A stretch of DNA of 64,000 nucleotides, from positions 177,928 through 241,927 of the forward strand of contig BDDD01002130.1 in NCBI GenBank assembly GCA_001972305.1, written 5' to 3'. The position numbers were made by a program, and so were the translations under genes. This document shows positions 8,907-49,744 of this stretch, one piece after another. This stretch comes from Cephalotus follicularis (Eukaryota; Streptophyta; Magnoliopsida; Oxalidales; Cephalotaceae). Each line of letters begins with the position of its first letter. Position 1 is the first letter of the stretch. The notes under the pieces are model-generated. The model did not search any database. It saw only the letters and a list, made by a program, of their open reading frames with translations, and was not told the origin of the DNA.

Positions 8907-8935
8907 GCGCAGTGTATCAAGATTGTGCCTCAGAG

Positions 8936-10125: not shown

Positions 10126-10129
10126 ATCG

Positions 10130-21650: not shown

Positions 21651-21710
21651 CTAAACAAATCAAGCCCTTACACGTGGGGTACTGTTGAGGGAAGGATTTC
21701 TGTATCAACA
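21651..21710 (+). repeat. 5' LTR remnant of element E
   Basis: These 60 bp match the end of the 3' LTR (31,216-31,275) almost base for base, from CTAAACAAATCAAGCCC to TATCAACA. The upstream 830 bp or so of LTR is missing: sequence left of 21,651 belongs to element I. Confidence 0.88.
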
Positions 21711-21730
21711 GTTGGCGTCGTTTGTGGGAA
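21711..21730 (+). other. Primer-binding site of element E
   Basis: GTTGGCGTCGTTTGTGGG directly follows the LTR terminus, as in elements D and F. Confidence 0.8.
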
Positions 21731-21755
21731 ACGCAGCAAAAAGCTATCAACAGCC

Positions 21756-23252
21756 ATGCCTCCGAGGAAGAACAACAACAACCTGTTGGGAGCCTCAAGC
21801 AGCCAACAACAGGAGGTCCCTCCTCCTCTCCCGGAAGCCGTCCAGGTGGTGGCCCAAGAACAAGCCCCTGTCACTGAGGAGCGGCTTAATCGGCTCATTC
21901 AGGGGGTGGAGCGTCTCACAGATTTGTTGACGACCAACCTAGCCAACCAGGCCCAGGCCTGACCTATCCAAGCAAATAGGAGAGGACAGAGAGGCCTTGT
22001 TAGGCCAGCAGTGGAGATGGGGCACCGCTGAGGTGCCAGGTGAAATCCGCCAAGGGGAGACGAACTTCCCCCAAGGCGGTCAGGGGATAATATTCCCCTG
22101 GGGAGGTGACCTGAGATCAATGAATCTCAGAGGGCAGAGTCCTCAACAGCCCGGGATCAGCCCAACGATCCCAGGAGAGCGCGTCATGAACACCATGCCA
22201 TGGATGTGGATCCTCGGGAGGAGGCCAGAGGAGAAGAGGAGGCGCAAGTGCGCTCCAATGCACTGCGCGGAGCTGGTACGGCCCGAGGAAGCAGGGTCGA
22301 CCCCACAGCCACAGTGGCTGGAGGGTCACGTGTCTCTATCAAGGCTAGGAACATAGAGGATGTGGATCAAGCAATGAACAAAAATCTTGCTGAGCTGGAA
22401 AGAAAGTTCCGAGGAGCAAAAAAGGGGAGGGGACATCTGTCCGAGGTACGCAACATCAGCGCCCACCCCTTCACATCTGAGATCATGGCAAAGGGTGTTC
22501 CTAGCAGGTTTCGGTTCCCAAGCCTTGACAAATATGACGGGTCCACGGATCCCATCCAACATGTGCAGTCTTACATTCAAGTCATGTGGATGTACCAAGC
22601 CTCGGACGCTACCCTTTGCCGAGGATTCCCAGCGACACTGACTGGAGCTGCCCAGTCGTGGTATTTCACCTTGGAAAAAGATTCAGTAGAAAACTTCGAT
22701 CAGTTTATGGAACTGTTTGTAACCAAGTTCCTCAATAGTACCACGCAAAGGAGGAACTCCACCCACCTGATCAACGTGGTGCAGGGCAAAGACGAGTTGC
22801 TGAGAGATTACTTCACCAGATTCAACAGGGAGTCTCTCACAGTGAAAGATCTGGAGCCATCCTTTTCACTGGCAGCTTTGAATAGTAGACTGAGGAGCAA
22901 CTCGTCCTTCACCTTCTCTCTTTTGAAAAAACCGGCCAAGGACATGGCAGAGCTGCTGAGGAGAGCAGAGAGATATGTCAACGCCGAGGAAGAGATGGCA
23001 GCCAGGAAACAAAAGACACCCTGGTCAGCCCATCAGGAGGAGAAAGGGGAGCGTTCACGAAATACTCCCGAGAGGAAAGAGAAGAGGAAGGAGAGGTCGG
23101 ACTTGTCCAAGGAAGACCTCAGACATAAACTCTCTAGACGAGAGAGCTCATCCAGGGGAGGGGCACCAATACCATCCTACAACCACTTTGCCCCCCTCCT
23201 GGACACACGCACCAGAATACTTGCTGTGGAGCAAGATAAGGTCCCCATCTAG
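21756..23252 (+). pseudogene. Tat-like gag, element E
   Basis: The start MPPRKNNNNLLG lies 45 bp after the LTR. The first segment runs to a stop at 21,960 (LNRLIQGVERLTDLLTTNL). The main segment (22,200-23,252) is in another frame and holds RNIEDVDQAMNKNLAELERK, LSEVRNISAHPFTSEIM, the retrotransposon-gag core (GAAQSWYFTL, ELFVTKFLNSTTQRRN, FTFSLLKKPAKDMAELLRR) and a basic tail. Gag forms the particle that packages element RNA. Compared with F and D the core is well preserved, and the lesion is the N-terminal stop and shift. Confidence 0.85.
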
Positions 23253-23880
23253 TGGCCCGAGAAGATGAGGTCCCTGGCAGAGAAGAGGGACACAGAAAAA
23301 TACTGCCGATACCATCGCGACCATGGACACGATACTGAGGAGTGCAGGCAGTTGAAGAATCGGATTGAGGACCTGATTCAGAAGGGGCACCTGCACAAGT
23401 ATGTTGACAGAGACGCCCCATAGGGCAGAAGGGAGCAAAGGAGAGAAGAGGCTCCTCGGCAGCAAGAGGAGCAACAGCAGCGAGAACCCAGAGGTGTCAT
23501 CCACACCATCTCTGGGGGGGTCGCATCTGGTGGTGACCACAAAAATGCAAGAAATGCTTATGGGAGGCAATCCTTTGCTGTGCAACAAGTCCACCACAGG
23601 AAAAGGTTGAGGACTAGTGGAGATGAAGAGGTTATATCCTTCTCGGAGGCGGACTACGAGGGAGTACGTCTCCCTCACGATGATCCAGTGGTGGTAACTC
23701 TTCTGGTGGAGCTTTTCACCATGAAGAGGATCCTTATAGGCAGTGGAAGCTCGGCCGATATCCTGTACAAACATGCGTTTGATTAGCTGAGGATACCGGC
23801 AGACCAGCTAAAGCCCGTGAAGACCCCACTGGTCAGCTTTGCAGGCGAGATGGTCCATCCTCTAGGATCCATCAACCTAT
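23253..23880 (+). pseudogene. Gag CHHC knuckle and protease, element E, truncated
   Basis: The first part reads EKYCRYHRDHGHDTEECRQ, the C-H-H-C knuckle variant common in Tat-lineage gag. The protease part reads ELFTMKRILIGSGSSADILY. The catalytic aspartate of DSGSS is glycine here (GSGSS), so the protease should be inactive, whereas F keeps DSGSS. Stops at 23,421 and 23,784 interrupt it. At 23,881 the sequence jumps from the end of protease to the end of RT, removing roughly 1.2 kb judged against F. Confidence 0.85.
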
Positions 23881-23881
23881 C

Positions 23882-24889
23882 TCGGCAATTCAAAGCATGA
23901 GGCCTCCGCAGACCATTAGGGATGTTCAAAGGCTAAATAGGAAGATTGCAGCCCTGAGCAGGTTTGTGTCAAAGTTAGCAGAGAAGTGCCTTCCTTTCTT
24001 CAAAATACTCAGGGATCCCAAGGGATTTTCTTGGTCAGACGACTATCAAGCAGCCTTCGACAAATTGAAGGAATACCTGGCTTCTCCTCCTCTGATCTCA
24101 AAACCTAAGGATAGGTAAGACTTGTATTTGTACCTTGCGGCCACCTCGGGCGTAGTGAGTGCGGTGCTAGTCAGAGAAGAGGAAAAAGTTCAAAAGCCAG
24201 TGTACTATGTGAGCAAGGCTTTGAATGATGCTGAAGAAAGGTACCCAGAGGTAGAGAAGTTTGCATATGCTTTGATCATCTCGGCCAGAAAATTGAGGCC
24301 ATATTTCCAAGCCCATACAATCAAGGTTCTGACTGACAAACCGCTTAAACAAGTTCTTGCAAAGCCTGACACCTCGGGCAGATTGATCAAGTGGTCAGTC
24401 AAGCTAGGCGAGTATGATGTGAAGTTCAAAGCCAGACCAGCAATCAAATCACAGGTCCTGGCCGACTTTGTTGGAGATAATACACCTACGGAGTGTATGG
24501 AGGAGAACCCCTCCGAGAGTGAGAGGGGAATTTGGAAGTTATCTGTGGATGGCTCATCTTGCATCACTGACAGTGGAGCAGGACTGGTATTGATGAGTCC
24601 AGATGGTTGGACGTTAGAGTATGCCCTGAGGTTCAAATTCAAAGCTACAAACAACGAAGCTGAGTGGGAAGCTCTGATAGCTGGGCTGACGATCGCAAAG
24701 CACTTGGAGGTGCAAAAGATAGAGGCCTCCAGTTATTCTCAGCTAGTGGTTGGTCTAGCAAATGGAGAGTATCAAGCCCGAGAAGACCCAATGACGAAAT
24801 ATTTATCCCATTTTCAGAGTATGAAGTCAGTTTTCAAGTTCTTAAGAATTTTGAAAGTACCCAGAGCAGAGAATGCCCGAGCAGACTAG
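23882..24889 (+). pseudogene. RT tail, RNase H and archaeal-type RNase H, element E
   Basis: It begins with the RT thumb/connection (RKIAALSRFVSKLAEKCLPF), then the gypsy RNase H (LYLAATSGVVSAVLVREE, KPVYYVSKALNDAE, VLTDKPLKQVL). After a linker follows a second RNase H of archaeal type: LSVDGSSC with the first Asp, NNEAEWEAL with Glu, and EASSYSQLVVG where F has ASSDSQ. One catalytic Asp is therefore replaced by Tyr. A stop at 24,116 precedes the RNase H frame. RNase H removes the RNA strand during reverse transcription. The extra domain is a known Tat-lineage trait. Confidence 0.85.
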
Positions 24890-26228
24890 TTATCAAAACT
24901 AGCAACGACAGAGGAGCTAGAGAAAAATCAAACCGTGCTAGTGGACTACCTGGACAAGCCCACCATCTCTGAAGCTGATGTGATGGACATTGACATACCG
25001 CAAGAGCCAAACTGGATGACTCCTTTCATCAATTGGCTGAGGAACGAAATTTTACCCGAGGACCCAGTGGAGGCGAGAAAGCTGGTCTACAAAGCAAACC
25101 GATTTCAATTCTGAGATGCGATCCTTTATAAAAGATCTTTCTCATTTCCTTGGCTAAGATGTATGACCCCCTTAGAGGCCGATTATGCTCTGAGGGAGGT
25201 CCATGAAGGAATTTGTGGCAACCACACTGGGGGCAGAACATTATCTCATAAGCTATTGAGGTAAGGATACTACTGGTCGACTATGCATCAAGATGCTATA
25301 GACTTGGTGAGAAAGTGTGACAAGTGTCAGAGGAACGCAAACATAAGTAGAAGACCTTCTCAACCTCTGATCCTTTGCACAATTGGGAATGGACTTCGTT
25401 GGACCATTACCTATGGCGACAGGCCAGAGGAAGTTTCTCATTGTAGCAGTGGACTACTTCACTAAGCGGGTGGAAGCAGAACCTCTAGCCACTATTACTG
25501 AGAAGAACACGGAGAGCTTCGTATGGAAGTCAATCATCTATAGATTTGGAGTCCCGAGGACAATTGTCACAGACAATGGTAAACAGTTTGATTGCCAAGC
25601 CTTCCGTGACTTTTGCAAAGAGTGGAGGATAAAGCATAGGCTTGCCTCAGTAGCCTACCCCCAAAGTAATGGTCAAACCGAGGTGATCAACAGAGAAATC
25701 ATCTCGGGCTTGAAGAAGCGCCTAGAAGATAGCAAAGGAAGATGGACAGAGGAGCTACCAAGCGTGCTATGGGCATACAAAACAACTCCTCGGACTACAA
25801 CTGGTGAATCCCCATACAGTCTATGTTTCAGGGCAGAGGCTATGATACCAGTGGAGATTGGTTTACAGTCACCATGGGTTGTACATTTCACTGAAGACAA
25901 CAATGAAGAAGGTCTCAGATGCATCCTCGACTTAGTGGAAGAACTTAGAGACAAGGCCGCTATCAGAGTTGCAGCCTACCAGCAAAGGGTGGGTCGCTAT
26001 TATAACAAAAGAGTAAGCCCCATACCACTAAGGCAAAGAGATCTAGTCCTACGCAACTCGGCTGTTGCGGACCCCACTGGTACCAGAGGAAAATTAGCCC
26101 CTGCCTGGGAAGGGCCATACAAAATCAAGAGGGTCGTCCGCCCAGGAACATTCAAACTTGAAACTTTGGGTGGTAGGGAGATTGCCACAGCTTGTAATGC
26201 CGAGCGTCTGAGGAAGTACTATCAATGA
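24890..26228 (+). pseudogene. Integrase, element E (core open, zinc domain broken)
   Basis: The H2C2 zinc domain (REVHEGICGNHTGGRTLSHK, then CDKCQRNANIS) has stops at about 25,113 and 25,261. The catalytic core, 25,383-26,228, is one open frame of 281 codons starting MGMDFVGPLP. Catalytic residues of DD35E are visible as D4, D64 (VTDNGKQF) and E100 (NGQTEVINR), with exactly 35 residues between the last two. The C-terminus holds the GPY/F-like segment WEGPYKIKRVVRPGTFKLE. The integrase would insert element cDNA into chromosomes. Without a continuous pol frame it cannot be made normally. Confidence 0.88.
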
Positions 26229-27318
26229 TTGTATGATATACGGAATAAAGTTGAATTTTTTCAAAATTTGTGTTCAATATCATAGTTTCAAGCTTGCAAG
26301 GGACCGGAGGTCCAATATTCATGTCCTCAAATCTCTGAACAGTCACCGATCAACCCCCTCAGTTTTTACTCCAAGCATGTCTGACCGCGCTCCCAAGGGG
26401 GCATTCAGAGTACAGCATGGCACAGGCCTAGTGCTTTCTAAGTTCTCTTACAAAGACTAGCCCCCAAAAGAAAGCAAACACGTACCGAGGTCTCGAACAG
26501 ACTGAGGTAACAAACGTCCGAGAAAACACTCAGGGACAAGCATACAAAAGACTCCTTCCGAGGAGCACATAAAAGCCTCCTTCCGAGGAGCATACAGAAG
26601 CTTCCTTCTGAGGAACACCCCTATACTCGTCAACAAAGACTCCTTCCGAGGAGCACATAAAAGCCTCCTTCCGAGGAGCATCCTAAAGACTCCCTCCGAG
26701 GAGCATCTATATACTTATCAACTAAGACTCCTTTCGAGGAGCACCCAAAAGACTTCCAAGGAAGCACTAAGACTCCCCTGGGAGCAAATACTGGTTAGCA
26801 ATATCATAGGAACTTGACTAACCAAACCTAAAATCGTGACTTGAGAGGCGAATCCATGGGTACTCGCAATGATCAAGCTCGTCGGACTAAGCACTTTAAT
26901 ACAAGTGTCCCTATGTGGACTGCAAGCTCAGCCGACCTGTCCTAAAACCTAATGGGTCAGACGATATTCTGCTCGGCAAACCCATAGGAACTTGTTCGAG
27001 CAGATCAAGAACTTAGTCAATGAATACAACAAAACTCATAAGGACTAAGTTACTATTACTTAAGAACTTTTGAAATAAAGTGTCCTGTGAGGAGTGTTAA
27101 GCTTAAGTATTTACTTCTTCGAGGAGTCAGTAACCTGGGCAAAGTTAGAATTCCTAAGGGAACTATCAACACATACATATATGCAAAGCTCAAGCACACA
27201 ATGCAAAAAATCAAAGGAAAAATCAGAGAATGCAAAAAGGTCTTTCTTTATTTATAAATTGAAAAGATTACAAGTACAAGAAAATCTAGAAAACTATTAC
27301 AAGGAAAAAAGATAAAAG
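26229..27318. other. Non-coding region between integrase and antisense gene, with tandem repeats
   Basis: There is no gene. It includes the tandem repeats at 26,540-26,790 (separate entry). The rest is unique sequence homologous to 44,050-45,790 of F, for example the paired blocks around CCTATGTGGACTGCAAGCTCAG (E) and its complement in F. Confidence 0.6.
26540..26790. repeat. Imperfect 25-29-bp tandem repeats in element E
   Basis: Units of the form AAAGACTCCTTCCGAGGAGCA recur about nine times with divergence. The corresponding place in element F holds about twenty units of a related but different 25-26-bp repeat. Confidence 0.75.
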
Positions 27319-29761
27319 CTAGCCTATAAAACTAAGCGGCAGGAGCATTAAGTGAAGATTCATCCTCTGGAGGTGGGGGAACAAAAGGCCCAGTCTGAGG
27401 AGGTTGATGAATGACGAGATCCGAGGAGGGAGCAAATGAAGCAAGGGCAGCGCAGGATCTGACAGAGGAACAACTGTCACGGCTGACCCATCTCCTCCAG
27501 CTTCGTTGCCTTGGCCTACCACAGCTCCAGAGGCAGGTTGGATTTCCTCTCCCTTTTCCATGGCCCCTAGGCCAGCTCTTTCTTCCAAGGCTTCTTCGGC
27601 CTTCACCTCCTTGGCTTCATAACCATCAGGATAGTAGTCAAAGGCTTTGGCAGCCGAGCAGTAGGAAATTTTGCCCAATGGAACCTCGGGATGGAGAGCT
27701 TTAACCCAGTTCCGGCATGTATAGAACCCCCGACGGTAGTACTCGGTGGATTCCTTAAAGACCTCATCAGCAAAGGCTTTTGAAGCTTTTTAATCCTCCA
27801 CGGAGGCCTCCATCAAGCTCTGGAACTTGTCCGAGGACTTGAATTCCGTAAGGGCATCCTCCACTGCCTTAGCCTGCTTTTCCTCCTGCTTCTTGCCAGA
27901 GTTTTCATGTTTCCTCTGCAATGCCCGGTACTGGTCGCCGATCTTGGAAAGGTCCTTTATCATTTGGTCCCTCTCCACGATGGCTTTGTTCCTCCCCTCC
28001 ACAGCTGACTCCTGGGCCTTGAGGACTTCTTCCAGTCGAGCCTCCGCCAAGCGCGAGGTCTCCATCTCCACCATCAGCTCCTCTCTTGCTTTGTCATACC
28101 TCTCCAAGATGATCAAAAAAAATTCTACCAAGAGGTGATGATCATTCAGAGCCTGCAAGAAAGACACAGAAATGAGAAGAATGAAAGCATACTAGAAGAG
28201 GAAGGTAAAGTACACAAGAAGAGGATCCTTCTTACCGTGAAGTGGCTCTACATAGAATTATGGATTAAGTCCATGTTGGTCCAGTCCTTTTTCTCCTTCA
28301 GCTTATCAGGGAAAAGGCACAGGGAGCTGAGAGCGAATGGGACCCCGGGGTTGTCCAAGCTGGTGGACCCATTCCCAACCCCCTCCAGCTCTTCAATCAT
28401 TTTCTCCACGTCCCGAGGAGGAGGCAAAATGATGGGGTTGTTAGAGGTCCTGCCGAGAGCAGACTATACCTCGACCTCGGACACCCGTTTCCCTTTTTTA
28501 CTTGGGGGCTGAGGAGGAGCGCCAGAGGAACGCCCCCCAGCGGGACGCTTGGTTCCCTTCTCCTTGGCAGCCATAGCAGCCTTCTTCATCTGCATGGCCC
28601 TCTCGGCGGTGGCCTTCGCCCTCTGCCTGGCCCCCTCGGCAGCATCCTTCTCTTTTTTCTTGGCCGCCTCCGCGGCAGCGTTCTGCTTGTTGGCTTCAGC
28701 AGATGAAGGTTTGGTGATCTTGGTGGCATTGAAGAGAGCGTCAAATCCTCGCCGAGAAGCCATTGTTACACAAAATAAAGAGGTAAAAAGGTCAGGAATA
28801 CGGAAACAAATAGTAAGAAAGCAGAAGAAACACGAAGACAAGAACTGGAGGAGATGAAAGCTTTATACAGTTTTCCCCCAACTCTTGGGGCATGGATTTT
28901 TCTGGGGATTCCCCACCCCCTAAGGTGTCCTCGACATCTGCCGAGTATGATCCTCGAAAGGGAACTACACTTAGTCCGACTCAAAGCAGACGATCCTCAA
29001 CCACTATAGAGTTCACCTCCTCGGGCTCCAATAGCAAGAGTTTGTCGAGGTCCATGTTCTCTGCCTTTGTCAGAGGGGGATGTCCTATTAAGGGGTAGGG
29101 TTTCCATGGAATCACACCAGACAGGGGAGGTGAACCCCTCAAATTTTTTTATGAGGAAGTATCTCCTCCTCCAATTTTTGATGGATTTGGTGGGGTTCAA
29201 AAGAAGTTTCTTTACGCCAGGGAGGGACTTGAAGAAATAGCCACGCTTCCCTGGCAAAGACGAGATGACATGGAACTCTTTAAATAGTCCCACTGTCGCA
29301 GCCACCTCGGATTCAAGACACCTAACTAGGAGGCCTATGATAAAGCTCCAAGACTGAGGTTGGAAAAAAGAATGGTGGAGATGAAATGTCTCCAAGACCG
29401 AGAGGGCGAAAGAGGGCACCGGGACCCTTAAACCGTGGGAGAGCGCACCTTCAAAGATGGCAAAGAAGCCCTCCCTACTCTCGGTAACTAGTCGAGGATC
29501 CGAGGGGAGACTAAATCTCAACCCAACGGGGAAATTATACTTGCGAGAAAGTTCCAGCACCTCATCGCGAGAAAGAATACTAACACCAAAGCAATCCGGG
29601 GCTAGGGTGTCAGCCTCGGTGACGGGAGCAGCAGGGTCACCCACCGCAGCCCCTAGGCTGCCTTCAGAGGAAAGGGGACTTTTGGCGGTGGGAACCACCA
29701 TGGCTAGGGGTTCGACTTCTAAGGGAGGAGAAGGCCTAGCAGTTTGTTTAGTTCTAGCCAT
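27319..29761 (-). pseudogene. Antisense multi-exon gene of element E, N-terminus identical to the histone H3 tail
   Basis: It is transcribed opposite to gag-pol. The ATG at 29,761 opens MARTKQTARPSPP: the first nine residues equal those of histone H3. The exon continues as a plant 'gypsy type transposon' domain (GLRFSLPSDPRLVTESREGF, then FHLHHSFFQPQSWSFIIGLL, and KSIKNWRRRYFLIKK). A frameshift near 29,070 disrupts its end. A second part (28,841-28,464) is Ala/Lys/Arg-rich coiled-coil with a nuclear-localisation-like KKGKR and ends at a stop. The third part (28,152-27,319) is coiled-coil followed by YYRRGFYTCRNWVKALHPEV, conserved in F as LFRRGFYSCLNMVDFHPEL. Introns at 29,762-29,837 and 28,153-28,235 have GT-AG ends. 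Function is unknown. Nuclear action is inferred. Confidence 0.75.
28153..28235 (-). other. Spliceosomal intron in the antisense gene of E
   Basis: On the minus strand the donor is CACG/GTAAGAAG and the acceptor TTTCTTGCAG/GCTCTGAATGAT, 83 bp with a pyrimidine-rich end. Element F has an intron at the equivalent place (42,984-43,057), followed by CTAATGAATGAT. Confidence 0.7.
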
Positions 29762-29837
29762 CTATGTCAGATGAAAAAAGAAGAAGCTAGAGAAGTCCTA
29801 GATCGAACTTAGAACAACAAGAAGACTGGCAACTTAC
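29762..29837 (-). other. 5' leader intron ending exactly at the ATG of the antisense gene of E
   Basis: The donor is CTTTG/GTAAGTTGCC and the acceptor GACATAG/ATGG, 76 bp, with a pyrimidine-rich stretch (CTTCTTCTTTTTTCATCTG) before the acceptor. Splicing would join the leader directly to the start codon. Confidence 0.6.
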
Positions 29838-29966: not shown

Positions 29967-29974
29967 CTTTTATA
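29967..29974 (-). promoter_or_regulatory. TATA box of the antisense gene of E
   Basis: The minus strand reads GGGCCTATAAAAGGATATC, followed about 30 bp downstream by CACTCATTCAAACTCTCATC, a plausible start region. It lies 206 bp upstream of the ATG, 130 bp after removal of the leader intron. Confidence 0.6.
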
Positions 29975-30362: not shown

Positions 30363-30379
30363 AGGACCAGGGGGGCATA
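30363..30379 (+). other. Polypurine tract of element E
   Basis: AGGACCAGGGGGGCATA ends one base before the LTR start TGATATGGG. Element F has the same tract at 32,163-32,180 on the minus strand. Confidence 0.85.
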
Positions 30380-31271
30380 TGATATGGGAAAAATTAGTTT
30401 ATACCAAGAACGACACGTGTCCTCTGCGGACACAGCCAAGCGTCCAAGGGCTTTAAAGTTTACATGGATACTAGTCAGAGAAAGTTTATCAAGCCCTGGC
30501 AGGAGGAGTGGGTGAAGGCATCCTCCTCGGAATTAGGTCCGAGGAACCCCTACTTAATGGTGATGAAGAATATGGCCTTCTCGGCATAAGTGCCGAGGAC
30601 ATCCTCGGCCTAAGTGCCGAGGATCTCCCTTCCAACATCAGTACAGAGGACCTAAACCAGGGGAGTCCTCCCCAACAGCACTGTGGGAGACCTCTTCCTC
30701 GGCGGCTTGGCAGAGGACTTAATGCTTTGGGCGTCGGCCCTTTAATAAGTTGTGGAAATTGAAGACCTTGAAGTGTGTAAATAACAAGAGAACTCTCCTT
30801 GTCCTCGGCAGGACAAGGCCATAAAATCAGCCTACTTTCCAGGGATTTACCGTTTCCAGATATGGAAGTTGAGATATAATAAACTACCTACAAGGAAAGT
30901 GGTGACAAATCAGGTGGAGATAAGGGAAATCCCGTTATCCTTGGCATTTCCTTTTGGGACAGCTATCACCTCCGTATTACACGCTCAGACAGTTACACTC
31001 CTACGCTATAAATACTAGTTCAACAGTCAGAGCAAAGGTCAGCCATTTTTACTCTCAAAAGAACCTAGTTTTCTCTGTGCAAAGGCCTAACTTGAGCGTC
31101 GGAGTGTCCCCGGGAGAACATCCTCCTGGACCTTCAGCGTGTTTGCTCTTCTGTGCAGAGAAAACATTCACAACCTTCTTCTACCTTCATCTCGGAGCAT
31201 CGACACAGCGTTTCCCTAAACAAATCAAGCCCTTACACGTGGGGTACTGTTGAGGGAAGGATTTATGTATC

Positions 31272-31275
<4 letters not shown>
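30380..31275 (+). repeat. 3' LTR of element E
   Basis: It begins TGATATGGGAAAAATTAG and ends GTATCAACA, 896 bp. Conserved blocks with D and F include GGAGTGTCCCCGGGAG and AATCAAGCCCTTACACGTGGGGTACTG at the end. A TATAAATA (about 31,010) is the likely LTR TATA box. Short direct repeats of GTGCCGAGGA lie at 30,587-30,650. A (CA)n tract follows the terminus. Confidence 0.88.
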
Positions 31276-31606: not shown

Positions 31607-32162
31607 TGTTGATGCAAAAATCCTTCCCTCAATAGTATCCCACGTGTAAGGGCTTGATTTGTTTAGGAAAACGCTGGAATCAGTCCGAGAAAGGTTGTTT
31701 CGTGGTTGACGATCCCTGCACAATAAGAGCACAAAGATTGAAGGTCCGGGAGGTTGTTCTCTCGGGGATACTCCGACGCTCAAGTTAGTAATTGCACAGA
31801 GAATACTAGGTTCTTTAGAGTGTAAAAATGGCTGACCTGGTTGAAGTCGTTTGATTTGTATTTATAGACCTCTAATGTAACTGTTGAGCATAGAAATGGG
31901 AGTTGATGGTTGCCCCTAAGGAAAATGCCCGAGAAGCCCGGGCATTTCCCCTGATCTCCGCCGGATTTGGTGGCATTTTCCCTTTTGGACGTGGTATCGT
32001 GCACGTCTCTGGTCATGGGTTGGCAACGCCCGAGAACAACGCCGCACTAATGGTGTTTAAACTTGCATTCCCTGGCCATATGCCCAGGCCTTGGAGTGAC
32101 ATCTGTCGTGCTCTCCTGGGGGCTCGTGTCATTATGCTTAAAAAATGAATTTTCCCATATAA
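31607..32162 (-). repeat. 3' LTR of element F
   Basis: It is 556 bp and matches the 5' LTR (558 bp after removing the solo LTR). On the plus strand it opens TGTTGATGC and closes ...CCCATATAA where the 5' LTR has CCCATATCA. The element-side terminus has therefore lost its TG (read as TT on the minus strand). Confidence 0.88.
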
Positions 32163-32180
32163 TATGCCCCCCTGGTCCTA
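32163..32180 (-). other. Polypurine tract of element F
   Basis: The reverse complement reads GGACCAGGGGGGCATAT, the same as in element E, and directly adjoins the 3' LTR. Confidence 0.85.
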
Positions 32181-32798
32181 CTTCTCTGGCCTTGGCAGAG
32201 GAGGAGGAGCAGAGTTGAGAGTAATAACCCGGACATAACTCCATCGAAGGATCGACCCTGGGCTGACCAGGGGAAGAGAGGAAGTAGGCCTGTGAGGCCT
32301 CAAGCGGGGTCGTACTCTTTGTAGATAAGTCTAACCAAATCCTTCTGTGGGCCCAACCTTATAGCCCATGCCACTTGTTAATAAGATGTGGCGTGACAGA
32401 TGTCCTTTCGCGCCACACTTCTTTAATGAATTCTCATCATTGCGCCGTAACTTACGAATTTTGAGCGCCTGACGCTTTGATGCCCGCGCTCAAAACCCTT
32501 CGTTTACCGCTCGTGATCTGACAGGAGGATCTCCACCGTTAAGATCAATCAGGATCTATGGTCTGGATGCATTCCCAGAGTCTTTAAATACCCCTCTTCC
32601 ACTTTTGAGATGTTCTTTACGCATTCACAATCCCTAAAAACAAAAGATTTCTTGAATCCCTTGTTTTTCCAATCTTCAAGCTTCGTTTCCTTCTTTGATT
32701 AAGTATACAAGTGAACTTTAGTTTTCATTTACCTTTTGCTTGATTCCTATGACCACTGCGTCTTCGTCTTCATCTTCCTTTCTCTCTCTCAAAACACC
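32181..32798 (+). promoter_or_regulatory. Promoter and leader region of the antisense gene of F
   Basis: This lies between the polypurine tract and the ATG. A TTTAAATA box lies at 32,583-32,590, followed by pyrimidine-rich leader sequence. An upstream ATG at 32,749 in poor context opens a 33-codon frame ending at 32,850, overlapping the main start at 32,799 out of frame. The main ATG has A at -3 and G at +4. Confidence 0.5.
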
Positions 32799-32887
32799 AT
32801 GGCCAGGACCAAACAGACCAAGAGGCTGGTTAGGCGTTCTGAGGTGGTAGCCCGATTGTCTCCGGGGGTCACCATTGCTGAGCGCCC
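32799..32887 (+). pseudogene. First exon (5' part) of the antisense gene of F, H3-tail-like start
   Basis: The frame opens MARTKQTKRLVRRSE. Residues 1-7 equal those of histone H3 and of the E copy. Compared with E, the codons for residues 2-7 differ at five third positions, all synonymous. After 89 nt the exon is cut by element B (duplication CGCCC at 32,883-32,887 and 41,253-41,257). The remainder lies at 41,258-43,900. In its present state the gene could yield only a short N-terminal peptide running into the B LTR. Confidence 0.75.
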
Positions 32888-34613
32888 TGTAATACCCAAC
32901 ATTTTATAAATAATTGAGGAGTGGAAATTGGGCTCAAAATGCAATACTGTTATTGGACTGGAAATTGAATTAATGGATAAATGACATTTTGGGCCGAAAT
33001 GTTTAAAAGAGAATTGGGTGTAAATAGTATTAATATTGTTATTTGGGAAGAAATGGTATTTTGGGCCCAAGTGGTGTTATTTATATTGGGCCCAAGGAAG
33101 TCTCTAGAAATGCTTGTTGTTGGGCCAAGTAGTGGATTAATAGAAAAAAAAAAGGGGGAGAGAAAGAAATGGTTTTGGGCCAATTGGAATTAAGAGAGAA
33201 ATGGGAGTGCTGGGCCGACCATCAGCCCAATTTTGTAAGGAAAAATGTGGAATGGCGTAGAGAATTCTAGAGACTTCCTTGGATTGCCTATAAAAAGGAA
33301 AGTGAGAGTGAGATGATGGCTGCTAATAATTTTCAGAGAGAAAGAGACAAAGTGAAGGGAGCTCTCTGGAGGCAAATGAAGAGTGTAGCAGCTGAGCAAA
33401 GGAAAGAGCAGTGAAGGCAAAAGGAGTGTGGTAGAGCTCATCAGTTCCAGCTAGGTTTTACTATATACTCAGTGCTTGTATTTTATTGTGAATGTTAATA
33501 TATGAATCAGTGTAAGAAAGGATAGTATATGATGGTCCTCTGAGTATAGTATAACGCAATGCTAAAAGTGGAAAATGTCTCTTTACGTGTAATGCCGAGA
33601 TACCTCACGTTTAAGCGCGCCATACCCAATGCAAGCATATCATCCATGTGCCAAAGATGTGCTATGCTACTCATGCATACTTCAGAAATGGCATGCGTTC
33701 CATGTCGAGCGTTCCTCTGCACGCACACATCCGAACTCGCCATCCTCTACCACGCAACGACGCCTAACTCACCAGTGCATGCGTCCTAAGCATGCGACAG
33801 TATGTGCCCCATTGCACCATTGTGCTGAGGAACCTAGGTGCCGAGATGGCGCCGAGCGTTCCTCTACCATGCGTCACAGCAGACAATCGCGGTGAGCTCG
33901 TCCTCTGTCTCCTCTGCCATGAGCACAACGCCTGCGTTTTCCTCTGCCATGAGCACAATGCCTGCGTTTTCCTCTGCCATGCACACAACGCCTGCGTTCT
34001 CCTCTGCCATGCGCACGACGCACGCTTTGTTCTTTTCCATGCATAACAAGTATGCGCCAGGAGCTGAGCACGCACTCTGGGCACTTGCCGTCCTCTGCCA
34101 TACATGTATCACACATGAACTCTTCTCTGTCATGCTTGGTACAGTTCCGTGGATGACCCACCATGAGTCCTAATCATGGTACGGCGGATGTGCATGCGCT
34201 GAGGACACGGCAGTGTAGTGCGCCACAGCCACCGAACCATGCATGCGTCAGAGGGCACGAGGACGCACCAGTATACAGCGTCCATGCAATGTCATGCCGA
34301 GCATGCAACGTCATGCCAAGCTATCTTCTGGTAACATCAAGCTCTCTCTCTCCTCTGCATGATTTACGAGCCTACAAAGCTGGTGAGCCTTCCTCTCTAT
34401 GCGCCCGAGTAGTGATTAAGCGCTCGGGAAGAGAAGGCGCTAAGTGGGTGCATGCAGGCATCCTCTGCATGTTGAATGCCCAATAGCACCACGCATGCAT
34501 GCCTTTATAACATAGTGAGCGCTAGAGTGTATAATGAGGTACGCCGAGGATAGCCACTGTTTTATGTTAGTAAATGGTACAATGAATGTAGTGCAATGTA
34601 GTGTATTATTACA
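32888..34613 (+). repeat. 5' LTR of element B, internally deleted
   Basis: It is 1,726 bp against 2,257 bp for the 3' LTR. The two align from the TGTAATACCC start to GTGTATTA. There the 5' copy passes straight to TTACA, missing the roughly 500 bp represented by 40,748-41,247. A smaller indel lies near 33,095 (GGGCCCAA). The lost part probably includes the polyadenylation region and U5. Confidence 0.85.
33911..34030 (+). repeat. 30-bp tandem repeat in the B LTR
   Basis: CCTCTGCCATG(A/C) units start at 33,911, 33,941, 33,971 and 34,001, exactly 30 bp apart. In the 3' LTR the units start at 40,041, 40,071, 40,101 and 40,134, with a 3-bp insertion in the last step. Multi-frame open reading frames here are a by-product of the repeat. 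Confidence 0.85.
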
Positions 34614-34617
34614 GACT

Positions 34618-34634
34618 TGGTATCAGAGCCGCGG
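34618..34634 (+). other. Primer-binding site of element B
   Basis: TGGTATCAGAGCCGCGG starts four bases after the LTR end and matches initiator tRNA-Met complementarity for TGGTATCAGAGC. Element I has the same site in reverse at 54,841-54,860. Confidence 0.9.
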
Positions 34635-34639
34635 TTCTC

Positions 34640-35640
34640 ATATTCTGGATACACCAGTAAGGAGTCCTTGGCTAATAAAGTTATTGCATGCGGACAAGAT
34701 AAGTGGGTATTAACCCTTCGGAGTTATACAAAAGTGAAATTTGACGGTCGTCGAAATAAAACTGCACGAGGAGCGAGAGCCGAGCCGTCGATTTGACGTA
34801 GTCGAGCAAATAGAGATGCAGAAGGAGTGAATGTATCCTAAAAGGCTGAAGTGACAGTAAGGGTTCTAACGTATGAAATGGACAAGTGATTAATAGAATG
34901 AACCGCAATGGACAAGTGACAGACTGTATGGACTGGAATGAATGAGTGATTGATTTGATGGACCTCAAATCATAAGTGCTTGACTGAATGGATGATAATT
35001 GACTGATCGAATGACTGATTGAATAAACGGTTTAGTGGACACTAAGCTAGAACCTCGGGGACTGGCTAGTGAGTAAGTGAGTGAATGATTACATAATGGA
35101 TTGACCAAATGAATGATTGAACGTGGGACCGAGTGAATGATTGAATGATTGTTTTGATGGTTAAGTGAATGAACGATTGTTTAAATGGGGATGCGGTTAA
35201 CTACTTATATATATACTGGTATGGGACGGTATATATATTTAGTCAACCACTAGATGTTAAATATTTATATACATGTTGGTATGGGACGACATGTATATAC
35301 ATAGTCAGCTTCTAGATTCCTCGTAATGTGCTAAATGGATACGGATCGTAAGCTATCGAATCGTATCATATCGATATTGAATCGTTATGGATCATTATTG
35401 GACTAGGATCTTCGAGAGACTGGGAATGAACGAATTGTGATCGAATAGATCGTTAATGAATGGATTGATGTCCAATGGATTGCTAATGAGTGGATTGGGA
35501 TTGGATGGATGGTTATTGAATGAATGAATGGATTTAACGGTTACAGATTGTACGGTTCAGATTAAATGATTATTGATCATATGGTTATGGAATTGTTATC
35601 ATATGATTAATGGATTGATTTTTGGCACACTGTGCCTGTG
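34640..35640 (+). other. Gag-less interior of element B with displaced 3' non-coding sequence
   Basis: No gag is readable. From about 35,190 the sequence resembles the region next to the polypurine tract in element I (21,170-21,640) and in B itself (38,640-38,830), including two tandem blocks of about 71 bp with GGTATGGGAC at 35,219 and 35,280. This suggests an internal rearrangement that replaced gag. Confidence 0.55.
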
Positions 35641-35644
35641 AGGA

Positions 35645-36599
35645 TTGAGACAGGAAAGTGTAACCTTCAATGTGTCAGGACAGTCCTCATTCCAGTTTAT
35701 TGTAACTTTAGAATGTCAACCGATTCAAATGATATCCACTATGGGGATTGACAGACTGTTAAGACAAGGTCATAATGTCACCTGGCACATGTTGACGATG
35801 GCAGGAAATGGACACCAAAGTTGGTGTATGTTCCGGGATGTGTTTCCGGAGGAATTAACACCCTTACCTCCTGAGAGAGATGTGGAATGTTCTAATGATC
35901 TTCTGCCAGGGACAACACCTATATCGAGAGCTCCCTATCGAATGGCTCCCCTTAAATTGAAGGAATTAAATGTGAAATTGCTGGAGTTACTCGATAAATG
36001 TTTCATCCGACCAAGTGTTTCCCCTATGAGAAGCACCGGTCTCGTTTGTCAAAAAGAAGGACAGATCGTTGCGAATAGGCACCAATTATCGACAGCTCAA
36101 TAAAGTGACTGTTAAGAATAAATATTCACTACCGCATATCGATGAGCCATTTGATCGACTGAGGGTATCGACGGTGTTCTCTAAGCTGAATTTGAGATCA
36201 GGGTATCATTAGCTCAGAATCCAGAAGGAAGATATTCCAAAGACGGTTTTTAGATCACGATATGGACAATATGAAAATTGTAGTAATGCCGTTAGGGGCA
36301 ATTAATGCCCTGCTACGATGAATCAAGTGTGCAGTCCATATCTTGATTGCTTTATCGTAATCCTTATTAATGATATCTTGGTGTACTTAAAGATAATGAA
36401 AAAGCATGGAGAACATCTACACTTGGCATTGCAAACTTCCAGAAATCATCGGTTATATGCCAAGTTCGATAAATGGAAACTCTGGTTGTTAGGGGTAGCC
36501 TTTCTGGAACATATCATATCCAGTGCCGGATTGTTAAGTGGATCCTTCAAAGATTGAAACAGTTAAAGCCTGGAAACGACCAATGAATGTGACGGAGGT
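35645..36599 (+). pseudogene. Chromovirus-like RT (5' part), element B
   Basis: The first frame (35,645-36,103) contains MISTMGIDRLLR, DVFPEELTPLPPERDVE, GTTPISRAPYRMAPLKLKEL and LLDKCFIRPSVSP, the classic start of chromoviral RT. After frame changes come INKVTV-like [13 protein letters not shown] and LRSGYH blocks, then 36,318-36,557 with CFIVILINDILVYLK and HRLYAKFDKWKLWLLGVAFLEH. The catalytic block is normally FIDDILVYSK, and here the first Asp of the DD pair is Asn. Stops and shifts abound. It ends at NVTEV, where a foreign fragment begins. Confidence 0.85.
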
Positions 36600-37228
36600 C
36601 GGAGGGCCGATGCGTCTATGGTACCGCACGTGGCTCTCCTCTGCATGTGACAGTATCGAGCTCTCCATTTGAGCTCCACTGATAAGCACTCGAGGTGCCA
36701 AGGTGCTATTGTGTCGTTGTGCCGAGGAGACCTTGGAGCCGGGCACCAACGGCCGAGGAGCCAGGGTACCAAAATGACCAAGTACCGAGCTCTACATGGC
36801 CAGCATGCATCGAGCATTTCTCTGCCATGCATGCAGAGCCTGTGTTCCGAGCTCCTAACCCAGGCATGGAGGACACGATGGTGTGGTGCACTGTAGCTCC
36901 CTCGCATAAGAACTCTCATCTGCTACGAATAGCGTATAGCACCGAGGATGAATACCCAGTGTCCTAAGCATAGCATAGTGCCGAGCACTGTCCAGAGCCT
37001 ACATCATCTGCATGGATAGTGATGAACACTGTCTAGTGCATACCTTCCATACATACTATGGCGTCGAGCAGCCTGCAATGCCAACTGCTAGAGCTCTGCT
37101 AGGCATGCTAAGCGCTTAACGTTGTAAGCGTGCAACGCTGAGATTTCCTCTGGTAACTATGAGCTCCCCCTCCTGTGCATGCTATAATCTTGAATACTGC
37201 CTTGCATGCATGCCCAATAATGTGAATA
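36600..37228 (+). repeat. LTR-like fragment inserted into the RT gene of element B
   Basis: RT homology stops after GTGACGGAGGTC and resumes at CTTCCTTGGCGTGGCAAG without loss of RT codons. The intervening 630 bp resembles the middle of the B/I LTRs (GTGCCGAGGA words, GCATGCATGC, and TCTGGTAACTATGAGCTC compared with TCTGGTAACATCAAGCTC in the B LTR). No clear target duplication or TG-CA ends were found, so it may be a gene-conversion or repair patch rather than a transposition. Confidence 0.6.
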
Positions 37229-37600
37229 AGCTTCCTTGGCGTGGCAAGATGCTACCGACATTTTGTTGAAAGATTCTCGCGCACAGCTACTCCCCTGACT
37301 CGATTGACGCAGAAGAATGTAGCTTTTGAATGGAATAGACAATGTGAACGGAGTTTCCAGGAGCTCAAACAGCGTTTGACTTCTACGCCTATCTTGGCTT
37401 TGCTGAAAGGCAGTGAAGGTTTTATGGTGTATAGTGATGCATCAAGCAGTGACTTGAGTTGTGTCTTGATGCAAAAATGGAGGGGTGACCATATATGCCT
37501 CACAGAGTCATCCAATGACTATAAATATGAACCTAGTACCATCCAGGCAAAGGTAATGTTGTGGCGGATGTACTAAGTCGCCAGCTAGCCGCTTAACGAT
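37229..37600 (+). pseudogene. RT end and RNase H start, element B
   Basis: The frame reads RHFVERFSRTATPLTRLTQK, then FEWNRQCERSFQELKQRLTS, GSEGFMVYSDASSSDLSCVL: RT thumb/connection and the first RNase H segment with the YSDAS aspartate. The middle of RNase H is missing, and what follows (VMLWRMY, then ADVLSRQLAA-like sequence) is the RNase H end in decay. Confidence 0.8.
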
Positions 37601-37989
37601 TTCTCGTATACATGTACGCCAATGTTATTGGAAAACTCAATGTACGGATGGAATGCTGCTTAAGGCTACAATGAATGATCAAGGTGAATGGAAATGTGAT
37701 TCTAGATTCCTAGTGACGAATTAATAAGATTATGAGGCAGAATTTGTATCCTTTATAGAATTAAAAGATGAGTTGTTGTCATATGCTCACCGCTCCAGAT
37801 TTTAGGTGCGTCTGACGATTAGCAAGATGTACTGGGATCTGAAGCTTATTTTAGTTGAATGATATGAAGAAAAAGCAAGCACCGTTACCACGGGCCTGCC
37901 TTGCCCCTCAACTTACGGGATCGATGCCTACCCTGGAAGGTAAAGTATATACCATGAATCAGAAGTAGTACAATGGGAAGTGTCTTGGT
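37601..37989 (+). other. Decayed pol linker, element B
   Basis: This presumably corresponds to the integrase zinc domain. Only scattered matches (for example a KMYWDLK-like segment near 37,826) remain. There is no usable frame. Confidence 0.4.
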
Positions 37990-38275
37990 TTGCCAAGAAC
38001 AAAGACTAAACCGAATGTTATATGAATAATTGTTGATCGCTTCTCTAAAAGTGTTCTTCTCTTACAATCAAAACCATATACTCTCTTGAACGGATAGCAG
38101 CCTTGTACATTGCAGAGAATGTAAGGCTTCACAGAGTGCCAATCCACGTAATGTCTGATAGGGACCCTCGTTATTAAGTCCTGATTATGAGAAAATTACA
38201 AGCAATTCTTGGTACTCGACAGTGTCCCAACACTGTTTTCCATCCCCAGACTGATAATCAGTCTGAAAGAACCCC
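37990..38275 (+). pseudogene. Integrase core remnant, element B
   Basis: In shifting frames it shows VDRFSKSVLL, YSLERIAALYIAENVRLHRVP, VMSDRDPRY and FHPQTDNQSERT. These are the chromoviral integrase blocks holding the first and second Asp and the Glu region (normally TDGQSER). At least three stops interrupt it. Confidence 0.8.
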
Positions 38276-38979
38276 ATTTTGTTAGTTCAAAGTGGGTAAA
38301 CGGAGTCTTTTGGGACCAAAGTTGGTGCCGAAAACTATGGAAAAAGGCTGAATAATTAAGAAAAGGTTGTTACCGATGTGAAACAGAGCAGAAAAGTTAT
38401 GCGGACTACCGCATAAGGAAACTGGAAAGTACAATGCGAGACCCGGGAGGCCGAGAAATTCCCTATCGGCCTCCGATTTGATATCGGGGTGTGAAACGGA
38501 TGTGTGATAATGGAAACGGTAGGCGAAATTGAAGGAATTTTTGGAATGAATCGGTAACGGATCCACATCTTTTGAAATCAGTAAATGGATTGTATTGATA
38601 AAATGGAAATGGAAAGTGACAGAATTGTTTTGAATCGTATGGTTATGGGCCGAATGGCCCGGCATATGAGATGAATGATTGAGGAATGTACTGTTATAGA
38701 GCGTATGGCTAAGGACTGTACAGTTACTGAATAGTATTGAACTGATATTATGTCTGGATGGTGTGCGTGGTTAACTATCTATATATGCTAGTGCGGGACA
38801 GTATACGTATTTAGTTAGCCTCTAGACGATCACCAGAAGGATGAATTAACATGATACGAGTATATCGTTAATGTCACGATAATGTCATGAAAGTGTATAA
38901 GTGCAACGAAAGCGTAGAAATGACATAAGGGTGATGTATAATCACCCATTTTGACCCTAGAATCTCGGGACGAGATTCT
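38276..38979 (+). other. 3' non-coding region of element B
   Basis: No chromodomain or other gene is readable. The GGTT-AACTATCTATATATGCTAG block near 38,770 matches both element I (21,300-21,370, reverse) and the displaced copies at 35.2 kb. It ends with GAATCTCGGGACGAGATTC, an inverted-repeat word also next to the polypurine tract of element I. Confidence 0.5.
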
Positions 38980-38995
38980 TTTAAGGGGGGAGGAT
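38980..38995 (+). other. Polypurine tract of element B
   Basis: TTAAGGGGGGAGGAT directly precedes the 3' LTR start TGTAATACCC. Confidence 0.85.
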
Positions 38996-41252
38996 TGTAA
39001 TACCCAAAATTTTATAAATAAATGAGGAGTGGAAATTGGGATCAAAATTCGATACTATTATTGGACTGAAAATTGAATTAATGGATAAATGACATTTTGG
39101 GCCGAAATGTTTAAAGGAGAAATGGGTGTAAATAGTATTAATATTGTTATTTAGGAAGAAATGGTATTTTGGGCCCAAGTGGTGTTATTTATATTGGGCC
39201 CAATTTATATTAATTGAAGAAGGAAGCTTTGGGCCTGAAATGCTTGTTGTTGGGCCAAATAGTCGATTAATAGAAGAAAAAAAGGGGAAAGAAAGAAATG
39301 GTTTTGGGCCAATTGGAATTAAGAGAGAAATGGGAGTGCTGGGCCGACCATAAGCCCAATTGTGTAAGGAAAAATGTGGAATGGCGTAGAAAATTCTAGA
39401 GACATCATTAGATTGCCTATAAAAAGGAAAGTAAGAGTGAGATGATGGCTGCTGATAATTTTGGGAGAGAAAGAGACAAGGTGAAGGGAGCTCTCTGGAG
39501 GCAAATGAGGAGTGTAGCAGCTAAGCAAAGGAAAGAGCATTGAAGGCAAAAGGAGAGTGGTAGAGATCATCAGTTCTAGGTAGGTTTTACTATCTACTCA
39601 GTGCTTGTGTTTTATTGTGAATGTTAATATATGAATCAGTGTAAGAAAGGATAGTATATGATGGTCCTCTGAGTATAGTATAACGCACTGCTAAAGGAGG
39701 AAAATGTCTCTTTACGTGTAATGCCGAGATACCTCACGTTTAAGCGCGCCATACCCAATGCGAGCATATCATCCATGTGCCGAAGATGTGCTCTGCTACT
39801 CATGCATACTTCAGAAATGGCATGCGTTGCATGTCGAGCGTTCCTCTGCACGCACACATCCAAACTCACCATCCTCTACCACGCAACGACGCCGAACTCA
39901 CCAATGCATGCATCCTAAGCATGCGATGGTATGTGACCCATTGCGCTATCGTGCCGAGGAACCTATGTGCCGAGATGGCGCGGAGCGTTCCTTTACCATG
40001 CGTCAGAGCAGACAATGGCGCCGAACTCGTCCTCTGTCTCCTCTGTCATGAGCACAACGCCTGTATTTTCCTCTACCATGAGCACAACACCTACATTTTC
40101 CTTTGCCATGCACACAACGCCGCCGACGTTCTCCTCTCCCATTCGCACGACGCACACGTTGTTCTTTGCCATGTATCACAAGCATGCGCCAGGAGCTGAG
40201 CACGCACTCTGGGCACTCGCCATCCTCTGCCATACATGTATCACACATGAACTCTTCTCTGTCATGCTTGGTACAGTACCGTGGATGACCCACCATGCGT
40301 CCTGAGCATGGTACGGCGCCGAGGATGTGCATGCACCGAGGACACATCAGTGTAGTGCGCCACAGCCACCGAACCATGCATGCGTCAGAGGACACGAGGA
40401 CGCACCAGTATACAGTGTCCATTCAATGTCATGCCGAGCAAGCAATGTCATGCCAAGCTATCTTCTGGTAACATCGAGCTCTCTCTCTCTCCTCTGCATG
40501 ATTTACGAGCCTGCAAAGCTGGTGAGCCTTCCTCTCTATGTGCCCGAGTAGTGATTAAGCGCTCAGGAAGAGAAGGCGTTAAGTGGGTGCATGCAGGCAT
40601 CCTCTGCATGTTGAATGCCCAATAGCACCACACATGCATGCCTTTATAACGTAGTGAGCGCTAGAGTGTATAATGAGGTACGCCGAGGATAGCCACTGTT
40701 TTATGTTAGTAAATGGTACAATGAATGTAGTGCAATGTAGTGTATTAGTAGGGGATGCCGAGGAAGGGTTTATTGTGACTGCTAGTGACTGTCAATGATT
40801 GTAAATGGACTGTACTGTATATTGTATGGATTGTTATTACATCTCTCATTTGCATTGCATATGCTTGCTGCATCTGCATTCATAAATGCATTGTGGTAGT
40901 TCCTACACGACCAGTGGTCGCTGACCCATTGCATTTTAATGCAATGGGTCAGGTACAGGTAGAGATTGCAGCGAGCTAAGGATTGAAGCCCCGGGTGAGT
41001 CTCCTCTACAGCAGATCGAGGACACGCTTTATTATATTTATATGACCTGCCGGATTGTGGCAGAGCATCTTTGTGAACTGTATTGTACAACACTGGGTTT
41101 ATCCATATAATGTGATATTTAATTGGATTTATTTCACATGCATTATTATATTATTAAAAGTTTTTAATTTCCACTGAATATTGGATAATGAATGATACTG
41201 TTAGTAGCCCGTCAAATATTGGGGGTTGACCCTTGGGGTTTGGGGCGTTACA
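38996..41252 (+). repeat. 3' LTR of element B
   Basis: It is 2,257 bp from TGTAATACCC to GGGGCGTTACA. It retains the segment 40,748-41,247 that the 5' LTR lacks. That segment aligns in reverse with the beginning of the element I LTRs (for example AATGCAATGGGTCAG and the GGTTGACCCTTGGGGTTTGGG end). Confidence 0.88.
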
Positions 41253-42128
41253 CGCCCCCTTAACATAGAGGTGGAGATGAAGGCTTCCACCGCTGGGAAC
41301 CCCAACATGGCAGCCTGAGAAGTTGGGGTCCAAGTTGTTAGCGCCGATTTCGAACAGACCACGATGAGTGTGAAGAAACAGGATGAGCTAGTCAGGGAAT
41401 ACTCCATCCCTGGTAGCTTGGACTTGGAGATTCCCTCTGATTCTAGGATGGCCTCAGGGAGCAGGCAGGGTTATTTTGTGGTGTTTCAAGAGGCCCTGGT
41501 GCATGGTCTAAGACTTCCCCTGGCCCCCTTCGCCATCAGCATCCTCAGGCATTACCAGGTTCATCCCCTGATGTTCCAGGCCCAATCCTGGGGTTTCATT
41601 GTTGGCTTCCTGGTTTGGTGCCTTGAGGCGGGGTTGACAGCCACTGTTTGGCTTTTTAAGGAGTTCCACACTATAACTTCCTCCCCAAAGAAGCAGGGCT
41701 TCTACTTCAAGTCGCGAGTAGGTCATCATAGGTTGTTGGCGGAGAATACCAGGACAGTGAAGAACTGGAGGGAGAAGTATTTTATGGTCAAGAACCTTCC
41801 CGATTTCACTCTGAGCCCGTGGACTGACACTGTGGATACAGTGGCCCTTAGCCAAAGGGTGTTTCTGTCTAGGGAGGAGAGGGTCGACCTGGACAAGCTT
41901 CTAGCGCTTGCCCCTAAGGAGGTGCTGGTAGTGGTCTTCGAGATCAACCTGCAAACCCATGGGCTTAGCAGGACCTATAGTCACAGGGCTGGGCTGGACC
42001 TGGCTGGGGAGGTCCCCACGGGAATTAGGATTGGAGGGTCCTTGGGTGCCCGAGACGGTCCTGGTTCCTTGGCAATGGGAGATGAGAGAGGAAGGAGCAT
42101 GGGTGCCCTGGATGGACCTGAGTCCACG

Positions 42129-42240
42129 GTAACTGGCCAATGAGAGAGCTGTATTATGCTTTCCCTTGGATTTTTATTATTCTATTACTATTATTCCTTC
42201 TCGGATATTTTTCTAACCCTCTTTCCATACTCCTGTGCAG
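42129..42240 (+). other. Putative intron 1 of the F antisense gene
   Basis: Donor CCACG/GTAACT, acceptor CTCCTGTGCAG/TGATGGC, with TTCTAACCCTC near 42,212 as branch-like sequence. In E the corresponding junction also places an ATGGC two bases or so after the intron end, but with a degenerate acceptor. Confidence 0.5.
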
Positions 42241-43900: not shown

Positions 43901-44619
43901 CAGTGGAACCCTCACCTGGGCTTGTGGCTAAGGACGCTCCTTTGGGGAGCTTGGCTGAAGGTTATCCGCCCTTGCCTACTGATCCAACTCCCCTGGATCC
44001 TCCTCCTCCTCCAGTCATGTATGACGTTCCTTCCGGGGATGAGAACTTAGAGTAGATTTTTGCTTGTCTTTTGTATTTTTCTTTCTTCTCAGCGATGTAA
44101 ATTTCATATTAATCAATGAAAAAGGAGTACCTTTGCACCTCACTTGTGTATGTTTTATTTCTTTGCTTTGAAATGTCATCAAGTACTCGTGAAATACCAT
44201 CCTTTTTTACCCCGGGCTATGTTTGAGTTGTACGCTGTGTTTGAGCTCTTCCCGGGCATTCGCCATTCCCTTAGGACACTTTATTTCAAAGGCACTTAGG
44301 CAAAGAGACTAGTCTTTAGGAGTTCTGTTGTGTTCGTAGACTAAGTTTTTGGTCTGCTCGGACAAGTTCCTATGGGCTTTCCAAGTAGGATATCGTCTGG
44401 TTCATCATGTTTTGAACCAGGTCGTCTGAGCTTGCAGTCCTCATAGGGACACTTGTATTATAGTGCTCAGTCCAACGAACTTGATCGTTGTGAGTTTCCA
44501 TGGATTCGCCTCTCAAGACACGATTTTAGGTCTGGTCGAACAAGTTCCCATGGTATTGTCGACCAGAGTGTGCTCCCTGGGGAGTCTTATTGCATCCTTG
44601 GAAGTCTTTCTAGAACTGC
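43901..44619. other. 3' flank of the antisense gene and spacer
   Basis: There is no gene. An AT-rich stretch with AATCAATGAAAAAGGAG near 44,112 may be the polyadenylation region of the antisense gene. Further right it aligns with the non-coding region of E. Confidence 0.4.
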
Positions 44620-49708: not shown

Positions 49709-49744
49709 ACCCCTAGGCTGCTGTTGTTGTTGCTCCTCCTGTTG

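Follow-up and report, generated by a model that had tools for sequence, protein, structure and literature searches.

Antisense open reading frames (ORFs) encoding TRP28 proteins have been described for Retand retrotransposons, where they are present in 97% of the recently active clusters, i.e., in all but two of 63, and the same 2025 survey suggested a regulatory, DNA-binding role for TRP28 (PMC11963269). According to a review, the antisense protein of the element Grande is nuclear, and a promoter located upstream of the gene drives its transcription (PMC7264820). Analysis of a 64,000-nucleotide stretch of Cephalotus follicularis DNA (here, the window) revealed two LTR retrotransposons, E and F, with an antisense ORF comparable to those of Retand, Grande, and RIRE2 in its place between pol and the 3' LTR, its orientation, its Transposase_28 domain, and the tandem arrays nearby (PMC11963269, PMC7264820). 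The ORFs of E and F differ from these in that they begin with the N-terminal residues of histone H3, whereas no H3-like N-terminus was noticed in either report, and neither main text contains the word "histone" (PMC11963269, PMC7264820).

Imitation of the H3 N-terminus is known from host proteins. The PHD finger of UHRF1 binds the VRTK terminus of PAF15 and also the ARTK terminus of H3 (PMC8034647). Like the products predicted for E and F, PAF15 is not a histone and has a free N-terminus resembling that of H3 (PMC8034647). Unlike them, it is a mammalian host protein and not part of a mobile element, and it is alike in four residues; no common descent is claimed. In the cleft of LSD1, the SNAG domain of GFI1 acts as a mimic of the H3 tail, and the SNAG domains of GFI1 and SNAI1, which imitate the H3 tail at the extreme N-terminus of a nuclear regulator, would be comparable to the E and F peptide (PMC5896174). 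In contrast to the peptide of E and F, SNAG is found in transcription factors of the host. Its sequence is not known to copy that of H3 exactly.

Two systems of parasitic or mobile DNA offer further comparisons. VANC anti-silencing proteins of VANDAL transposons bind family-specific repeats; like the proteins of E and F, they are encoded by plant mobile elements with family-specific tandem repeats in their noncoding parts, but they come from DNA transposons, and no H3-like N-terminus was seen for them in the available part of the source (PMC10398659). The hepatitis delta antigen is said to copy a histone motif and to engage a chromatin reader (PMC6972770), and it is thus a parasite protein with histone mimicry, as proposed here for E and F, although from an animal virus. 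Among the best-ranked matches in the open-licence PMC literature, no title or abstract reported an H3-like N-terminus on a retrotransposon or TRP28 protein. The sole match with both MARTKQTAR and retrotransposon was PMC5469831, the title of which concerns H3K4me3 and H3K27me3 in xylem.

Results

Antisense TRP28 genes of elements E and F

In E, the ORFs for gag, RNase H, and integrase are distributed over several frames of the plus strand (22110 to 26228), and the 3' LTR follows at 30379 to 31275 (plus strand), its end being supported by a 60-bp repeat at 21651 to 21710 and its start being set by eye from a purine tract. These 60 bp are what is left of the 5' LTR of E and are 98% identical to the 3' LTR (31216 to 31275); a different sequence lies upstream of the remnant, which looks like the outcome of an insertion by another element. 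Element F lies on the minus strand, with RT and gag ORFs at 48059 to 51299 and a 3' LTR at 31607 to 32163, the borders of which were set by eye and by similarity to the LTR of E. Both elements contain, between pol and the 3' LTR, an ORF that runs opposite to gag, RNase H/RT, and integrase.

The first antisense ORF of E (28997 to 29761, minus strand) comprises 254 amino acids, and near 29075 its similarity to relatives continues in another frame. Residues 103 to 165 (29267 to 29455, minus strand) matched Transposase_28 (PF04195) with 26.3 bits at a cut-off of 26.2. The gene of F is broken after about 30 codons by a nested LTR element (32888 to 41252) flanked by a CGCCC target duplication (32883 to 32887 and 41253 to 41257). 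Past the insertion, an antisense ORF with Transposase_28 (41319 to 42143, plus strand) scored 36.8 bits; an in-frame TGA is located just before it. The ORFs of E and F represent the accessory gene for Transposase_28 (TRP28) that Retand-type Ty3/gypsy LTR retrotransposons carry in antisense orientation, the label "Retand-type" being assigned from the architecture and TRP28. Searching the window by tblastn revealed two TRP28 loci, E and F only. Among four pieces from the downstream part of the E gene, two matched F (E values, 4.7e-14 and 6.4e-6), and two were without a match at an E value of 1.

Protein searches revealed 16 different relatives, all from Cephalotus follicularis; in one of these searches, scoring was confined to the 8000 candidates sharing the most words, and little can be concluded from the lack of other plants. 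None of the 16 homologous gene models includes the MART peptide, and none reaches the N-terminus. Scans of viral contigs and genome contigs confirmed no relatives of TRP28 or of the integrase. A profile search of the Protein Data Bank (PDB) gave weak kinase matches only (best E value, 0.12), and two AlphaFold models had mean pLDDT values of 36.8 and 42.6, too poor to judge the flexibility of the tip.

The gag-pol regions of E and F (21651 to 26311 and 51546 to 45697) are 80 to 83% identical in DNA, with pS values of 0.44 for gag, 0.34 for RNase H, and 0.46 for integrase. In the TRP28 core, 74 of 157 residues are identical, pS is 0.858 (saturated), and pN is 0.332. Because the antisense genes are far more diverged than gag-pol, they would be older than the gag-pol backbones, or the 3' module may have been exchanged between them.

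Further repeats were observed in the window. The long LTRs of the nested element (32888 to 34611 and 38996 to 40750) are 92% identical in the alignment. A 2-kb direct repeat (11119 to 13106 and 54865 to 56845; 85% identical) is partly similar (74 to 76%, opposite strand) to the LTR end of the nested element at 40818 to 41252. A third gag-side region at 8816 to 10146 is about 66% identical to the gag of E and F, and no TRP28 copy was detected there by tblastn.

N-terminal peptide shared with histone H3

Translation of the antisense ORF of E (29761 to 28997, minus strand) gave MARTKQTARPSPPLEVEPL..., and translation of the ORF start of F (32799, plus strand) gave MARTKQTKRLVRRSEVVARL.... The sequence-only reading of this DNA had described the start at 29761 (minus strand) as identical to residues 1 to 9 of H3, MARTKQTAR, and had placed MARTKQTKR at the homologous start of F at 32799. 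Both statements were borne out: codons 1 to 9 of E (29735 to 29761, minus strand) by translation and by a match to a PDB histone H3 chain, and codons 1 to 9 of F (32799 to 32825, plus strand) by translation and a degenerate pattern search. The match of the E tip to the H3 chain extended across MARTKQTAR with an E value of 1, which alone is not significant because the query had 20 residues. The degenerate MARTKQT DNA pattern, searched with at most two mismatches in the 64-kb window, detected the starts of E and F and no third site. In shuffled versions of the window, the same pattern matched 0.06 times on average, and two matches occurred in none of 100 shuffles.

The first seven residues are common to E, F, and H3, and E agrees with H3 in all nine. 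In H3 numbering, the module common to both copies consists of A1-R2-T3-K4-Q5-T6 plus R8; position 7 is a lysine in F, and K9 is missing from both. The shared stretch covers only the K4 module, to which H3K4 readers bind, and not K9.

The centromeric histone CENH3 might be the imitated model instead of H3, since the CENH3 antigen of Chlorella sorokiniana, MARTKQTKPSPSKRGA (PMC11005252), shares its first eight residues with F. The agreement of E with H3 through residue 9 argues against CENH3, which we regard as a highly improbable model.

The peptide might also be functional and conserved in a way unrelated to mimicry, as part of a nuclear import signal, as a nucleic acid contact, or as an N-terminal processing signal, and its identity to H3 would then reflect convergence on a small basic motif. 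An import signal would be consistent with residues 7 to 13 of F (H3 numbering), where KRLVRR is signal-like by eye, and with the nuclear location of the related Grande protein (PMC7264820). In the first 20 residues, the net charge is +1 in E versus +6 in F. This difference speaks against a basic-motif function, because what the two copies share is the exact letters and not the charge, so that charge alone is no explanation. We consider such a function rather unlikely, even with the recurrence of the motif in viral contigs reported below taken into account.

Position of the start codon

The peptide could act as a free N-terminus only if the MART ATG is the start of translation. In E, an in-frame TAG is the codon directly before this ATG. 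The start codon of E is preceded at a distance of 213 nt by a TATAAAA box (29968 to 29974, minus strand), and that of F at 216 nt by the TATA-like sequence TTTAAATA (32583 to 32590, plus strand); both are sequence matches only. The leaders of E and F do not align, yet the TATA-like boxes are located at -213 and -216, and this near-equal spacing supports an N-terminal position of the peptide. In addition, a candidate 5' UTR intron of 76 nt in E (GTAAGT...ATAG, 29762 to 29837, minus strand; sequence match only) would end exactly at the ATG. From the LTR starts inferred by eye, the distance between the ATG and the 3' LTR is 618 nt in E and 635 nt in F.

The possibility was considered that the downstream Met21 of E is where translation begins, in which case the peptide would not form a free N-terminus. 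All four Cephalotus gene models extending into the linker (P0002, P0003, P0004, and P0018) start at the equivalent of this methionine, which has a strong start context in E (GCCATGG). These public starts may, however, be choices of gene modeling. Furthermore, in E no other ATG separates the TATA-like box from the MART ATG, and the MART ATG of F stands in the context ACCATGG; if the sequence were untranslated, the peptide would also not have been preserved by changes that are all synonymous. In F, two ATGs are present between the TATA-like box and the MART ATG, one 27 nt past the box, which is in frame but has an in-frame stop behind it, and another at -50, which is out of frame. Taken together, a start at Met21 appears very unlikely, and the MART ATG is preferred as the start codon.

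Selection on the ARTKQT tip

Comparison of codons 2 to 7 between E and F revealed five synonymous and zero non-synonymous differences. Five of the six third positions differ, exactly as claimed in the sequence-only reading, which had taken the pattern to suggest selection on the peptide and had stated that the sequence just downstream diverges freely. The latter holds as well: after residue 9, the linkers agree at 6 of 20 aligned residues. The probability of the pattern in codons 2 to 7 without constraint on the peptide, determined by sampling with a transition bias of 1 to 4, was 1.8e-4 to 4.2e-4. In the TRP28 core, 1 of 152 six-residue windows is fully identical (LFKEFH); the tip thus equals the most strictly conserved block of the core. 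The five synonymous changes without a replacement, at saturated synonymous distance, thus lend support to the claimed selection, and conservation of the ARTKQT tip by selection appears well supported for the two copies in the window. The pair was chosen because E resembles H3, and F, at the matching place, provides a separate check. Since both genes are broken, any selection acted on their ancestors.

Three other sources of the shared tip were considered and are not favored. Recent gene conversion between E and F is disfavored by the saturation of synonymous sites. With respect to conservation at the DNA level, the sole local match found upstream of the start spanned 23 bp close to the end of the LTR. 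For capture of a histone gene fragment, the identity ends at residue 9 and is too short to decide.

Occurrence of the motif in viral and prokaryotic contigs

A chance baseline for the H3 match was obtained from viral and prokaryotic contigs; it is a rough one, as their base composition differs from that of plants. In viral contigs, the MARTKQT DNA pattern was present at 115 loci, 33 of which read MARTKQT and none MARTKQTAR. ORFs of at least 60 amino acids followed in 22 of these 33 cases and fell into six unrelated groups (sorted by eye). MARTKQT thus heads unrelated proteins in viral contigs, and the 7-mer alone is no proof of mimicry. The six groups also favor the convergence on a basic motif considered above, as the motif can arise without chromatin.

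The longer pattern was found at 10 loci in prokaryotic genome contigs (257 Gb), nine reading MARTKQTAR and the tenth having a serine. Seven of the nine starts belong to histone H3 or H3-derived sequences, and the other two head ORFs of 28 and 19 amino acids; no non-histone ORF of at least 60 amino acids starting with MARTKQTAR was found among these contigs. The seven H3-type matches probably represent eukaryotic DNA within the prokaryotic assemblies. Full or long histone H3 frames were observed in the bacterial-labelled contigs L118, L121, L122, L123, and L125, which points to eukaryotic DNA in these assemblies.

These counts, together with the codon comparison, bear on coincidence, i.e., an ancestral start that read MARTKQT by luck and was kept without lasting selection on its likeness to H3. 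In favor of coincidence, there are just two copies, and the finding was picked for its resemblance to H3 in a scan in which many windows and motifs were read. On the other side, the five differences in codons 2 to 7 are all synonymous (P, 2-4e-4), and MARTKQTAR occurred at 0 of 115 viral-contig loci and in no non-histone ORF of at least 60 amino acids in prokaryotic contigs. We judge coincidence to be improbable.

Tandem arrays between pol and the antisense gene

At 26539 to 26751 in E and at the matching place, 44617 to 45142, in F, units of approximately 25 bp with a palindromic core are repeated in tandem. Each array has pol on one side and the 3' end of the antisense gene on the other. Palindromes with arms of at least 5 numbered 6 in the E array and 10 in the F array, compared to shuffle means of 0.5 and 1.1 and maxima of 3 and 4; these are simple shuffles, and the repeat copies are not independent. 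By eye, the units follow the common plan ACAAAAGAC-palindrome-CAT, and the arms differ between E and F. It may be speculated that TRP28 binds to these arrays.

Discussion

The antisense genes of E and F begin with the K4 module of histone H3, and the comparison of the two copies argues for selection on this tip. In the leading interpretation, which we consider quite possible though slightly less likely than not, the mature N-terminus of the antisense TRP28 protein was kept identical to the H3 K4 module and served as a functional mimic of the H3 tail. Transcription of the antisense gene would start at a promoter of its own close to the element's 3' end, and methionine aminopeptidase would remove the initial methionine, exposing Ala1. 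The TRP28 protein, presumably nuclear like that of Grande (PMC7264820), could then display a tail resembling that of H3, borne by a linker that varies. Such a tail might be offered to host proteins that read or edit the H3 N-terminus, such as PHD fingers of the UHRF1/VIM kind or demethylases of the LSD1/LDL type. These readers or demethylases would be recruited to the element or blocked there, and silencing of the element may be altered. The display of an H3 tail and the change in silencing are proposed by analogy with PAF15 and SNAG.

Several points weigh against mimicry. The readable N-termini come from two copies, both of them broken, and MARTKQT heads six unrelated groups in viral contigs, where histone mimicry has no obvious meaning. 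The peptide is present in 0 of the 16 homologous gene models, and the four extending into the linker begin at the Met21 equivalent. In addition, F has a lysine at residue 7 of H3, both copies lack K9, and the ATG at -50 in F is upstream and out of frame. N-terminal acetylation of Ala1, if it occurs, would hinder PHD binding.

A more specific version would make TRP28 a sequence-specific display of the H3 tail, in which the DNA-binding part would sit on the element's own approximately 25-bp palindromic arrays and the ARTKQT tip would engage host readers or demethylases at that site. This version has a low probability in our estimation. If true, it would constitute retrotransposon anti-silencing via histone mimicry, similar to VANC in its working and unrelated to it.

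With an N-terminus that is identical to H3 and would be free, mimicry is testable, directly and cheaply. If the peptide binds readers of the H3 N-terminus or LSD1-type enzymes, plant retrotransposons would join the viruses and host regulators that copy the H3 tail, and the role of the widespread TRP28 accessory gene would become testable.
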